A stretch of DNA of 64,000 bases from Alistipes sp. dk3624 (GTDB taxonomy: Bacteria; Bacteroidota; Bacteroidia; Bacteroidales; Rikenellaceae). A model generated the notes under the pieces. The model saw only the letters and a list, made by a program, of their open reading frames with translations. It was not told where the DNA came from and searched no databases. Numbering within the stretch: the stretch's first letter is position 1; every line of letters begins with the position of its first letter. The position numbers were made by a program, and so were the translations under genes. Shown one piece after another: positions 31,552 through 35,986 of this stretch. The stretch lies in the NCBI RefSeq assembly GCF_009557455.1, contig NZ_CP045651.1, forward strand, positions 930,001-994,000, in the 5' to 3' direction.

Positions 31552-32061
31552 TTATCCGGCGACAGGGCTCGCATAGACCCGGCCGGCCAGTTCCTTGTCC
31601 AGCATAAAGGTTCCCACCTTGTCGTCGCCGACCAGCTTCAGCGCATCGATAATGCCCTGCACGTTCTCCTCTTCCTCGATTTGCTCGTCAACGAACCAAA
31701 CCAACCGGTTCGCCGAAGCGAAATCCTTTTCGGCGGCAGCCAGCTCGCACAGCGCATTGATCCGGGCGGTCACGCTTTTTTCGTGTTTCAGCGTATCTTC
31801 GAAAGCGGCCAGCGGAGAATCCCAGGCGGAAGGCACTTCGGCAATCGGCGCCAGAGCGACCTTTCCGCCGCGTGCGAGGACATGATCCATCAGCATCCGG
31901 GCATGATCCTGTTCCTCGCGGAACTGGATCGAAAACCAGTTGGCCATTCCCTTGAGTCCTTTCCGGGCGAAATCGCAGGACATCGACAAATACAAGTATG
32001 CGGACCAGAATTCCGCATTAATCTGGGCGTTGATCGCCTCTTCCATTTTTTTACTCAGCAT
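31552..32061 (-). CDS. Ferritin
   Basis: Non-haem ferritin of 169 residues that oxidises and stores iron in a 24-mer. Ferroxidase ligands are visible in INAQINAEFWSAYLYLSMS (Glu17 region), FREEQDHARMLMDHVLARGG (E, E and H), and FVDEQIEEEENVQGIIDAL. The overall pattern is FtnA-like, with no haem-binding Met as in bacterioferritin. It is monocistronic, ended by a strong terminator. Its promoter overlaps that of divergent rimO. A DpsL-like protein at 12651 gives the cell a second iron-handling cage. Confidence 0.95.
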   Translation of the reverse strand: MLSKKMEEAINAQINAEFWSAYLYLSMSCDFARKGLKGMANWFSIQFREEQDHARMLMDHVLARGGKVALAPIAEVPSAWDSPLAAFEDTLKHEKSVTARINALCELAAAEKDFASANRLVWFVDEQIEEEENVQGIIDALKLVGDDKVGTFMLDKELAGRVYASPVAG

Positions 32062-32113
32062 AATCTATCGTTTTAAATGTCCGTAAACATTCGGTCAATT
32101 TCATGTCGACATG

Positions 32114-32145
32114 CAAATATAGTGCGGATTTTCCTATTTTTGCAA
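32114..32145 (-). promoter_or_regulatory. Promoter of the ferritin gene
   Basis: On the complement, TTG (32143-32145), a 21-nt spacer and TATATTTG (32114-32121). The rimO -7 element (32135-32142) lies inside this spacer on the other strand. Confidence 0.65.
32135..32142 (+). promoter_or_regulatory. -7 element of rimO
   Basis: TATTTTTG matches TAnnTTTG, 16 nt before the rimO ATG, implying a very short or nearly leaderless 5' end. Confidence 0.55.
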
Positions 32146-32158
32146 GCAAATACGCACT

Positions 32159-33451
32159 ATGAAACGTAAAATCAACGTCATAACGCTCGGTTGTTCGAAA
32201 AACCTCGTCGATTCGGAACACCTGATGGCGCAATTGCAACGCAACGGTTTCGAAATCGTCCACGACTCGAACGAAACGGACGCCAGGATCGTCGTAATCA
32301 ACACCTGCGGATTCATCGGCGACGCCAAAGAGGAGTCCGTCAACACGATCCTCGCATTCGCCGACGCGAAGACCAAAGGCTGTATCGACCACCTGTTCGT
32401 CATGGGCTGCCTGGCCGAACGCTACCGGGAAGAACTGCGGGAAGAGATCCCCGAAGTGGACGAATACTTCGGCGTCAACGACCTGCGCGACATCGTGAAA
32501 ACCGTCGGCGGACGCTACCGCGACGAACTGACCGGGGAGCGGCACCTGACCACGCCGGGCCATTACGCCTACCTGAAAATCTCGGAAGGATGCAACTGGG
32601 GATGCGGTTATTGCGCGATCCCGCTGATCCGCGGACGTCACGTCTCGGTGCCGATGGAAGAGCTGCTTCGCGAAGCGGAGATGCTGGCCGCGCGGGGCGT
32701 CCGGGAACTGATCGTCATCGCGCAGGATACGACCTACTACGGCCTCGACCTGTACGGCGAGCGGCGGCTCGGCGAGTTGCTCCGCAGGCTGTGCCGCATC
32801 GACGGGCTCGAATGGGTACGCCTACACTACGCCTACCCGGCGCAGTTCCCGACGGACGTGATCGACGCGCTGCGCGACGAACCGAAAATGTGCAAATACC
32901 TCGACATCCCGTTTCAGCACATCAGCGACCCGCAACTGAAAAGTATGCGCCGCGGGCTGAACAAGGCGCAGACCTACGAACTGATCGGCGAACTGCGCCG
33001 CCGGATTCCCGGCATCGCGCTGCGGACGACGCTGCTGACCGGCTATCCGGGCGAAAGCGAAGCGGATTTCGACGAACTGCTGGAATTTGTCGAACGGGTG
33101 CGGTTCGAACGGCTCGGAGTCTTCCCGTACTCGGAAGAAGAGGGTACCTATTCGGCCATGCGGCTGCGCGACGACGTACCGGACGAGGTGAAACAACGGC
33201 GGGCCGACGCGATTATGGAACTGCAAAACCGCATTTCGGCCGAAAACAACCGCCGGCGGATCGGCACGCGAGAGCGGATCATCATCGACCGGCGCGAGGG
33301 AGAGTTCCTCGTCGGACGTTCGCAATACGACTCGCCGGAAGTCGATACCGAAATCCTGATCGAAACCGACGAGAATCCGTCGCCGGGAACCTTCCTGGAC
33401 GTAAAAATAACGGAAGCAGGAGATTACGACCTTTACGGAAAATTCGTATAG
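32159..33451 (+). CDS. rimO: Ribosomal protein S12 methylthiotransferase RimO
   Basis: Radical-SAM enzyme (430 aa) that methylthiolates Asp of S12 at the decoding centre. The UPF0004 domain starts with INVITLGCSKNLVDSEHLMA, the SKN version that marks RimO rather than MiaB. Further cluster cysteines are in VVINTCGFIGDAKEES and FVMGCLAERY. The radical-SAM motif is SEGCNWGCGYCAIPLIRG (CxxxCxxC). The TRAM domain closes the protein (EFLVGRSQYDSPEVDTEI). It is complete and monocistronic; divergent from ferritin. Confidence 0.97.
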   Translation: MKRKINVITLGCSKNLVDSEHLMAQLQRNGFEIVHDSNETDARIVVINTCGFIGDAKEESVNTILAFADAKTKGCIDHLFVMGCLAERYREELREEIPEVDEYFGVNDLRDIVKTVGGRYRDELTGERHLTTPGHYAYLKISEGCNWGCGYCAIPLIRGRHVSVPMEELLREAEMLAARGVRELIVIAQDTTYYGLDLYGERRLGELLRRLCRIDGLEWVRLHYAYPAQFPTDVIDALRDEPKMCKYLDIPFQHISDPQLKSMRRGLNKAQTYELIGELRRRIPGIALRTTLLTGYPGESEADFDELLEFVERVRFERLGVFPYSEEEGTYSAMRLRDDVPDEVKQRRADAIMELQNRISAENNRRRIGTRERIIIDRREGEFLVGRSQYDSPEVDTEILIETDENPSPGTFLDVKITEAGDYDLYGKFV

Positions 33452-33470: not shown

Positions 33471-33501
33471 TTTGCATTTTGACAAAAAATAACTACTTTT
33501 G
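33471..33501 (+). promoter_or_regulatory. Promoter of the coiled-coil/zapA operon
   Basis: TTTG (33471-33474), a 19-nt spacer and TACTTTTG (33494-33501) match the consensus exactly. Transcription would start near 33507, so an in-frame GTG at 33503 cannot be the start codon. Confidence 0.75.
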
Positions 33502-33529: not shown

Positions 33530-33820
33530 ATGGATGACAACAAGGCGATTATCGATTCACTGAAGAAAAAGGTTTCTCGGATCATCGAGGACAACCGGCG
33601 ACTTCGCAGCGAAGTGCGTGAATTGACCGCCGAACGAGACACGGTCATCCTCGAAAAAAGAGCGGCCGAAACGGAAATACGGCAGCTCGGCAGACGAATC
33701 GAAACGCTCGAAACGGCGGCCGGTCTGATGGGAAACCGCGGCGACAGCCGGATAGCAAGGCTCAGAGTCAACAAACTATTGCGGGAAATTGACAAATGCC
33801 TTGCATTGATGAACAAGTAG
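33530..33820 (+). CDS. Coiled-coil protein upstream of zapA (ZapB-like)
   Basis: A 96-residue protein predicted to be almost wholly alpha-helical. Residues 5-65 form a long coiled coil (IDSLKKKVSRIIEDNRRLRS, continuing VRELTAERDTVILEKRAAET) with regular heptads, and the C terminus (KLLREIDKCLALMNK) is a further helix. The ATG at 33530 is chosen because the promoter leaves no room for the upstream GTG. It lies 16 nt before zapA and probably works with it at the division ring, much as ZapB does with ZapA in E. coli, though no sequence homology to ZapB is claimed. Confidence 0.75.
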   Translation: MDDNKAIIDSLKKKVSRIIEDNRRLRSEVRELTAERDTVILEKRAAETEIRQLGRRIETLETAAGLMGNRGDSRIARLRVNKLLREIDKCLALMNK

Positions 33821-33836
33821 CGAAGACGTTATATTG

Positions 33837-34124
33837 ATGGCAGGAACGCGCAGGATATCGGTGAAGTTGGCGGGTAAAGAATACCCGATGACGATCCGGC
33901 AGGCCGAGGAGGAAAAGTACCGGCGTGCGGCACAGGATATCAATGCCCTGATCTCGGTTTACAAAACCCGGTTCGCCGCCGAACCGGAAGATTATCTGGC
34001 CATGGCCGCTTTGCAGGTGGCCGTCGACAAGGTCGGGCTGGAGATGAACCGGGAGATGACGGAAGAGGCACAGCGTTTGCAGAAAATCGAACGAGAGATC
34101 GACGACTACCTGAACAATATTTGA
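33837..34124 (+). CDS. zapA: Cell division protein ZapA
   Basis: FtsZ-associated protein of 95 residues that cross-links FtsZ filaments. The N-terminal globular part (ISVKLAGKEYPMTIRQAEEE, YRRAAQDINALISVYKTRF) is followed by the coiled-coil helix that mediates dimerisation (VDKVGLEMNREMTEEAQRLQ). The ATG at 33837 is used; an in-frame TTG one codon upstream is less likely. It is encoded just before the 6S RNA candidate, the same order as zapA-ssrS in E. coli. Confidence 0.92.
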   Translation: MAGTRRISVKLAGKEYPMTIRQAEEEKYRRAAQDINALISVYKTRFAAEPEDYLAMAALQVAVDKVGLEMNREMTEEAQRLQKIEREIDDYLNNI

Positions 34125-34179
34125 AACGCAAACGACGTCTTAATAACAGACAACAGGTTCTTGGACATATAAGTTAAGG

Positions 34180-34394
34180 AATAAAAACCCGCATGGATTC
34201 CTTTTAAGCTTTGCGAAACTCAACACTATTTACATTGGGGTCAAGCTCAGTATTTCAAAAACAGGCCTTAACCTTCCCCCCGGAAGGTTCTTCATCCGAA
34301 GACGTTGGACGTTTGCGATAAACGGCAGCCCCATACATGACGAGATTGGAGATTCGTCAAACAAGGAAAGAGGAATTTGTGCGGGTCTTTTTTA
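34180..34394 (+). ncRNA. ssrS: 6S RNA (SsrS) candidate
   Basis: The 320-nt gap between zapA and rny folds into one long rod, as 6S RNA does. The closing stem pairs ACCCGCA (34187-34193) with TGCGGGT (34380-34386), and ATTCCTTTT (34197-34205) with AAAGAGGAAT (34367-34376). Further in, TTTGCGAAACTC (34210-34221) pairs with GAGATTCGTCAAA (34349-34361). Imperfect helices and a large bubble follow, and the apex is AACCTTCC/GGAAGGTT (34270-34289). A T-run at 34388-34393 ends it. 6S RNA mimics an open promoter and sequesters the housekeeping RNA polymerase in stationary phase. Synteny with zapA supports the call. Exact ends are uncertain. Confidence 0.75.
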
Positions 34395-34444: not shown

Positions 34445-35986
34445 ATGAGCATTGTAATTATAGCAATAATTGCCGTCATCTGTTCCGCCGCAGGCTGCTA
34501 TGCAGGCTATTCGATCACATCGAAAATCGTCCGGAACAAGAAGGCCGCGATTCTGAAAGAGGCCGAATCGGCCGGCGAGATGATCAAAAAGGAGAAGATT
34601 CTCCAGGCCAAGGAAAAATTCATCCAGCTCAAAAGCGAACACGACCGGGCCGTCAACGAGCGCAACCAAAAGCTCTCCCAGAGCGAACAGCGCGCCAAAC
34701 AACTGGAAAACAACCTGACCCAGCAGCAGGACGAGCTGAACAAGAAAATCCGCGAACAGGATTCCGTACGCGAGCGTCTGCAGGCTCAGATCGAGAGCGT
34801 CGAACGCAAGAAGGAAGACCTCGACCGCAAAATCAAGGAACAAAACACCCGTCTCGAACAGATCAGCGGCCTCAGTAGCGACGAAGCCAAGAACATCCTG
34901 ATCGAAAACATGAAAGAGGAGGCCAAGACCGAAGCGATGACCTATGTCAACGAAGTGATGGAAGAGGCCAAGATGAGCGCCAACAAGGAAGCGAAAAAGA
35001 TCGTCGTACAGACGATCCAGCGCGTCGCTACCGAAGCGGCCATCGAAAACTCGGTCACGGTGTTCAACATCGAGAGCGACGAAGTGAAAGGCCGGATCAT
35101 CGGCCGCGAAGGACGGAACATCCGGGCCCTGGAAGCCGCTACCGGCATCGAGATCATCGTCGACGACACGCCGGAAGCGATCATCCTGTCGGGCTTCGAT
35201 CCGGTACGCCGTGAAATCGCGCGTCTGGCGCTGCACCAACTGGTAACGGACGGCCGCATCCATCCGGCACGCATCGAAGAAGTCGTTGCCAAAGTACAGA
35301 AACAGATCGAAGAAGAGATCGTCGAAGCCGGCAAGCGCACCACGATCGACCTGGGCATCCACGGGCTCCATCCCGAACTGATCCGCCTGATCGGTAAGAT
35401 GAAATACCGTTCGTCTTACGGACAAAACCTGCTGCAACACTCGCGCGAAGTGGCCAATCTGTGCGGCATCATGGCCTCGGAACTGGGACTGAACGCCAAG
35501 ATGGCCCGTCGCGCCGGCCTGCTGCACGATATCGGCAAGGTGCCCGACGACGAACCGGAATTGCCGCACGCAATCATCGGCATGAAACTGGCTGAGAAAT
35601 TCAAGGAAAAACCGGAAGTGATCAACGCCATCGGGGCGCACCACGACGAAATGGAAATGAACAACCTGATCTCGCCGATCGTACAGGTCTGCGACGCGAT
35701 CTCCGGAGCCCGTCCGGGAGCCCGCCGCGAAGTGGTCGAATCGTACATCAAGCGGCTGAAGGAGATGGAAGACATGGCCCTCGCCTATCCCGGCGTCATG
35801 AAGACCTACGCGATTCAGGCCGGCCGCGAACTGCGCGTGATCGTCGGCAGCGAGAAGATCACCGACCAGGAGGCCGACAGCCTGTCGCACGACATCGCCA
35901 AGAAGATCCAGGACGAAATGACCTATCCGGGCCAGGTGAAGATCACCGTGATCCGCGAAACCCGCTCGGTCAGCTACGCGAAATAA
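34445..35986 (+). CDS. rny: Ribonuclease Y
   Basis: Membrane-anchored endoribonuclease (513 aa) that starts mRNA decay. It has one N-terminal transmembrane helix ([20 protein letters not shown]), a long coiled coil (about 30-205, [20 protein letters not shown] and onward), a KH RNA-binding domain ([20 protein letters not shown]) and the metal-dependent HD domain with [20 protein letters not shown]. The C-terminal domain ends with [13 protein letters not shown], the normal family terminus. It follows the 6S RNA candidate and ends before a 56-bp perfect palindrome. Confidence 0.97.

Follow-up and report, generated by a model that had tools for sequence, protein, structure and literature searches.

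The gap between zapA and rny in an Alistipes-like Bacteroidales genome of 3.02 Mb almost certainly encodes a 6S RNA, a widespread regulatory RNA of bacteria by which RNA polymerase is parked when cells grow slowly. The stretch in question, positions 34180 to 34394, belongs to a 64,000-nucleotide piece of DNA that was analyzed as a whole and is called the window here. Comparison shows the kinship of the RNA to known 6S families, its 6S shape, and the conserved order of a zapB-like gene, zapA, 6S, and rny (Table 1). From the sequence patterns described below, the RNA is probably cotranscribed with zapB and zapA under boxA/Nus antitermination. The best matches of the RNase Y encoded by rny were found in Alistipes and other Rikenellaceae (among the best 80 of 376 related stretches), and 26 of the 41 genomes covered by a DNA search, its own included, contain the stretch.

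Table 1. Predicted features of the zapB-zapA-6S-rny region, in positions of the window
Feature	Positions	Strand	Basis and remarks
Bacteroidota-type promoter, TTG-N19-TACTTTTG	33472-33501	+	Pattern script; proposed promoter of the zapB-zapA-6S transcript, just before the zapB-like gene
zapB-like small coiled-coil gene	33530-33820	+	ORF starting at ATG 33530; the ORF list gives GTG 33503
zapA	33837-34124	+	Pfam PF05164, 53.6 bits against a cut-off of 23.8, E 2.8e-14
boxA-like element, GTTCTTGGACATA	34157-34169	+	One base off the GTTCTTT core
6S RNA	34187-34392	+	RF01685, 26.9 bits; models R1 and R2; covariation; approximate predicted ends, set by the model match
Closing stem, 5' arm (helix 1)	34187-34205	+	Pairs with 34368-34386; 84.8% of cells paired; both-side change in 11/19 pairs
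Inner closing helix, 5' arm (helix 3)	34214-34221	+	Pairs with 34349-34356; 98.7% paired; both-side change in 3/7
Central bubble, 5' strand	34222-34235	+	Expected pRNA template (pRNA role inferred)
Terminal stem base, 5' arm (helix 6)	34236-34241	+	Pairs with 34328-34333; 89.4% paired; both-side change in 4/6
Central bubble, 3' strand	34334-34348	+	Weak pairs in helices 4 and 5
Closing stem, 3' arm, and U-run	34368-34393	+	Would double as intrinsic terminator; sequence and U-run in alignments
rny (RNase Y)	34445-35986	+	PF12072 (N-terminal), 128.8 bits, plus KH and HD domains

At the curated gathering thresholds of Rfam, no match was obtained anywhere in the window. The best match at relaxed thresholds was 6S-Flavo (RF01685), whose gathering threshold is 85 bits, and when the whole genome was searched with this model at an E value of ≤10, the gap was the sole matching place. 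A sequence-only reading of this DNA had named the gap a 6S candidate and offered a match to the canonical 6S model, RF00013, as a check. The candidate was borne out by the subthreshold RF01685 match, the covarying fold, and the links to RF01693 and RF00013 given below. The check itself failed: RF00013 matched nothing in the window, either at its gathering threshold or at an E value of ≤10. We read this miss as divergence of the model, a property of the model and not of the molecule, because the model R2 matches the same gap in distant Bacteroidota, including one locus (L314) that passes RF00013. Weak matches of StyR-143, ceN109, and sR47 in the window, all under cut-off, were taken as chance.

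The links to curated families were obtained with two models. R1, built from 22 relatives, matched in 91 of 119 Bacteroidales genomes, and RF01685 matched in 17 of 148 Bacteroidota genomes. R2 comprised 61 sequences, the RNA of the window and relatives, including 16 of the 17 RF01685 loci, and matched in 149 of 296 genomes of the phylum. One R2 locus (L324) was identified by Rfam as RF01693, "Bacteroidales-1 6S-Bacteroidales RNA suggested," with 184.4 bits, over the cut-off. Another, L314, which lies in a zapA-rny gap, was identified as RF00013 with 47.1 bits against a cut-off of 46.4. The other 18 of the 20 R2 loci scanned at Rfam cut-offs gave no 6S-family match; among them was L320, which has a sub-cut-off RF01685 match despite this silence. 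At relaxed thresholds, RF00013 coincided with the R2 match in 7 of the 16 loci tested, namely L314 and six under the cut-off. These overlapping models join the RNA of the window, 6S-Flavo, Bacteroidales-1, and canonical 6S. Homology to curated 6S families holds through R2 and not at Rfam cut-offs in the window. When RF00013 was run over 199 relatives, a single match was obtained, in G390, a Bacteroidales draft genome that is 85% complete. This locus (L217, G390:C182) carries a canonical RF00013 6S RNA of 69.9 bits with a zapA-like ORF just before it and no rny match in the stretch examined, and it may be a contaminant or a transfer. Rfam 15 divides Bacteroidota 6S, seemingly one family, into RF00013, RF01685, and RF01693, and the branch of the window passes none of them.

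The rod-like fold described in the sequence-only reading was recovered in full, with a long closing stem, an internal bubble, apical hairpins, and a terminal U-run. The folding energy of positions 34180 to 34394 was -66.8 kcal/mol, compared with -49.4 ± 4.2 kcal/mol for 200 dinucleotide shuffles (z = -4.15), and no shuffle was as good. The RNAalifold consensus fold contained few pairs (31 on alignment A1 and 11 on A2), so pair counts were made with a single-sequence fold mapped to a MAFFT alignment of 22 relatives. In this alignment, 78.2% of cells were paired, and 41 of 68 pairs changed on both sides. The covariation score was 0.210, compared with at most 0.137 when the partners were slid, a comparison that favors the fold because it was taken from one of the 22 sequences; the score was reached by 0 of 500 shuffles. 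In helix 3, CGAAACUC pairs with GGAGAUUCG, and in helix 6 the 5' arm is UGGGGU with its partner. Helices 4 and 5, predicted between helices 3 and 6, kept their pairs in only 53 to 66% of cells, so this region is read as an open central bubble of about 14 and 15 nt. Inspection by eye for likeness of the bubble to the Bacteroidota -7 box gave nothing crisp. Closing stem, central bubble, and terminal stem together form the 6S architecture, which is supported by covariation.

The order zapA-6S-rny is widespread in Bacteroidota, as shown for the sampled loci. In Bacteroidales, zapA was found upstream on the same strand in 84 of 89 loci, within 91 nt in 83 of them, and rny followed in 83 of the 84 linked loci. 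The exception is L157, where the contig ends first; its zapA is 585 nt away and its 6S has its own -7 box, and it was counted as linked. Both neighbors were present at 16 of 17 RF01685 loci. Among 40 R2 loci, hand-picked for family spread from the 149 genomes with matches, zapA was found in 33 and rny in 30; for those from other classes of the phylum, the counts were 31/31 and 28/31. A profile built from the zapB-like gene found a relative immediately ahead of zapA in 122 of the 130 zapA-linked loci that had enough sequence. Pfam gave no ZapB match for this ORF, which is called zapB-like by position and look only. Upstream of the zapB-zapA-6S unit, positions 31552 to 33451 hold a ferritin-like gene on the minus strand and, on the plus strand, a radical SAM gene of the MiaB/RimO type with UPF0004 and TRAM domains.

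The Bacteroidales tally contains 89 loci, though R1 matched in 91 genomes. G079 stands outside it, with zapA, the boxA core, a promoter at -673, and rny all present, and would give 85/90 linked. Also uncounted were two weak partial matches of G078 (25.8 and 25.7 bits), with rny in the stretch of one, no zapA found, and no boxA at either, and L216, a weak second match of G077 without zapA and without rny.

The synteny claimed for the gap was thus confirmed in Bacteroidota (zapA in 84/89, 16/17, and 31/31 loci), and the statement that E. coli ssrS lies directly after zapA proved correct, the order there being zapA-ssrS-fau (NC_000913.3). The wider claim of an order shared by distant phyla stood for Bacteroidota, E. 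coli, and beta- and gamma-proteobacteria, for which the available parts of PMC7641849 give the order ZapB-ZapA-SsrS. As a universal rule it did not stand, given 12 loci with 6S elsewhere and the alpha-proteobacteria, where ssrS is not flanked by the ZapA and EVE genes according to the same parts of that paper. The available portion of PMC9788540 notes the order zapA-6S-ygfA, and that of PMC2245857 found no synteny for Sinorhizobium meliloti 6S. That zapA precedes 6S is already known in part of the proteobacteria; the present work adds how often it does so in Bacteroidota, where rny flanks 6S on the opposite side.

The promoter of the 6S transcript was sought with the pattern TTG-N17-23-TAnnTTTG, which we take to be the Bacteroidota -33/-7 consensus. 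In 52 of 82 linked Bacteroidales loci, a match was found 600 to 700 nt upstream of 6S, before the zapB-like gene, compared with 0 to 3 matches in each of the other 100-nt bins up to 1,500 nt. The promoter was nearer than 590 nt in eight loci, and in 26 the pattern was absent from the first 760 nt. Each of the 16 linked 6S-Flavo loci has a promoter, lying 662 to 697 nt ahead of the model start. With a spacing of N18-22, the pattern matched four times on the plus strand of the whole window. Of 132 linked loci, only two (L157 and L177) have a -7 box no more than 60 nt from 6S.

In most Bacteroidales, GTTCTTT and then an A-rich stretch immediately precede 6S, as seen from base counts for 65 loci. 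Within the 100 nt preceding 6S, 67 of 84 linked Bacteroidales loci contain the core GYTCTTT, compared with 34 of 1,636 windows drawn at random from the same loci. When one mismatch was allowed, a 9-mer was present in 72 of 84 (58 of 1,636 random windows), and in 7 of 84 even the loose pattern was absent. The core was found in 10 of 16 linked 6S-Flavo loci and in only 8 of 32 linked loci of a more diverse set. Thus, the element is most marked in Bacteroidales and in genomes of the Flavobacteriales type; elsewhere it is weak or different.

The same core, GTTCTTTG, was present in 12 of 12 16S leaders from nine genomes, including both rRNA operons of the window genome (16S matches were obtained in 10 of 30 genomes, and the fragments of G095 were left out). 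All 12 had a -7 box upstream of the core, and three had another between the core and 16S. The two leaders of the window genome (L218 and L219) carry repeated -7 boxes and multiple boxA-like copies, which suggests tandem rRNA promoters. RNase P genes of 29 genomes served as a control: one has the core, and 19 have a -7 box no more than 60 nt away. In gamma-proteobacteria, boxA is given as GYTCTTTAANA in the available parts of PMC5725501, whose boxA survey, in those parts, does not consider noncoding RNAs. Based on this consensus and the shared core in 16S leaders, the motif before 6S is read as a putative boxA antitermination element. The window genome also has nusB. A boxA-like motif just before 6S is put forward as new here; boxA, "6S RNA," and antitermination were not found together in any of the papers listed by a search of open-access literature.

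The 12 loci where 6S is not beside zapA served as a natural experiment. Nine of them have a -7 box no more than 60 nt from 6S, compared with 2 of 132 linked loci (Fisher's exact test, P = 2e-10), and the exact boxA core was present in 0 of 12, compared with 85 of 132 (P = 1e-5). These tests ignore shared ancestry, and the relocations may be few events, so both P values overstate the evidence. L320, which shares a genome with L154, was dropped from this tally; L326 comes from the same genome as L156, which is absent from it. The relocated L202 has a one-mismatch boxA between promoter and RNA, and L212 matches boxA only by the looser pattern. No -7 box was found within 60 nt of 6S at L323, L326, and L327; L326 and L327 belong to family f116 and L323 to f119, and none has a recognizable -7 box. 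In general, a place outside the operon goes with an own promoter.

RNase Y served as the query for 10 of the 12 genomes with relocated 6S. Each of the 10 keeps zapB, zapA, and rny side by side in order, with 82 to 210 nt from the zapA stop to the rny match, and the gap contains neither boxA nor a -7 box; the single loose boxA match of L341 lies inside zapA. In these genomes, boxA is thus missing from the gaps that lack 6S, and its presence follows that of 6S and not that of zapA or rny. R2 found no full-length 6S in these gaps. In L335 (1413-1468, 16.3 bits) and L339 (1405-1450, 11.3 bits), a gap hairpin of 46 to 56 nt with a T-run matches only the ends of R2, as if the closing stem of 6S had been retained as a terminator.

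These data bear on what the gap encodes and on how it is expressed. It is hardly credible that the gap holds no 6S and instead belongs to zapA as a structured 3' UTR or terminator, or to rny as a leader. The silence of Rfam at gathering thresholds, the intergenic position, and the terminator-like stem at the end would fit such an element, but the models overlap three 6S families, homologues sit elsewhere in other genomes with promoters of their own, and the covarying stems surround an open bubble. An ordinary promoter directly at 6S, with GTTCTTT as a promoter part or activator site instead of boxA, is unlikely. Although the motif sits near the start of the RNA, as expected of promoter parts, its distance from the RNA varies from -15 to -78, and a nearby -7 box is rare at linked loci. 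Moreover, a complete promoter lies upstream of the one-mismatch motif wherever close promoters accompany it (L138, L171, and the relocated L202), and in 16S leaders the motif is downstream of a -7 box in every case, though the three noted above also have one between motif and 16S.

It is very unlikely that boxA serves zapA or rny, through read-through into rny or rny autoregulation, with 6S as a bystander. The presence of rny downstream (83 of 84 linked Bacteroidales loci) would agree with this, but zapA and rny stand together around a gap without boxA in all 10 searched genomes with relocated 6S, and the closing stem of 6S with its U-run would stop read-through. A reading of another kind, to which we give slightly less than an even chance, is that the operon is only historical: 6S would be tethered by a shared promoter and terminator, and division would have no functional tie to growth-phase control. 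6S lies elsewhere in the 12 relocated loci while the other genes remain in the 10 genomes searched, and gene order alone does not show coupling. However, the order has been kept across the phylum and, according to the available parts of PMC7641849, in beta- and gamma-proteobacteria, which is long for a neutral arrangement.

If 6S is cotranscribed as proposed, RNA polymerase would start at the promoter before the zapB-like gene and transcribe zapB and zapA, followed by boxA, which comes directly behind the zapA stop. On the RNA, boxA would then be bound by NusB and S10 (NusE), which would load the complex used for rRNA antitermination and so shield the untranslated, structured 6S stretch from Rho. 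E. coli ssrS reportedly undergoes Rho-dependent termination, so antitermination would be useful. The closing stem and U-run would end the transcript, and a nuclease would free the mature RNA. By analogy with the 6S family, 6S would bind the holoenzyme of the primary sigma factor as an open-promoter mimic and be released by pRNA synthesis. In Bacteroides thetaiotaomicron, 6S with pRNAs is described in the available parts of PMC7366714.

That 6S neighbors zapA is on record for proteobacteria, and in the available parts of the literature searched no experimental explanation of it was found. Division and growth-phase control may be functionally coupled, and cotranscription would be a plausible physical basis for this. 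Our tentative proposal, held with rather less than even confidence, is that in Bacteroidales and Flavobacteriales 6S is the product of an operon and is made with a boxA/Nus antitermination complex of the rRNA type. The rRNA machinery and the ZapB/ZapA promoter would then make the RNA that parks RNA polymerase, in a direct regulatory loop linking ribosome synthesis, division, and transcription capacity. The Bacteroidota data lead to a testable statement, that the supply of 6S relies on boxA as well as on the promoter of division genes, and this phylum offers relatives with and without the zapA-boxA-6S arrangement. Should boxA act for 6S, the reach of Nus-factor antitermination would include a regulatory RNA.

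Among known systems, 6S-Flavo (RF01685) lies between zapA and rny like the RNA of the window at 16 of 17 loci and has the same conserved ACUCAACACUA and GGAG core, whereas the RNA of the window scores far below the RF01685 gathering threshold and its apical part is longer. The likeness to Bacteroidales-1 (RF01693), the type to which B. thetaiotaomicron 6S is supposed to belong, runs through the relocated homologue L324, found by R2, which lies outside the zapA operon with its own promoter and no boxA core. Canonical 6S/SsrS (RF00013) has the closing stem, central bubble, and terminal stem in common with the window RNA, and in E. coli it also directly follows zapA. However, ssrS is followed by fau in E. 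coli and 6S by rny in the window, and by eye the 100 nt ahead of ssrS show no GYTCTTT. In E. coli, ssrS is transcribed from promoters of its own. With the rRNA boxA leader, the putative element shares the core found in the 16S leaders of these genomes, whereas here it precedes a regulatory RNA and sits behind two protein genes.
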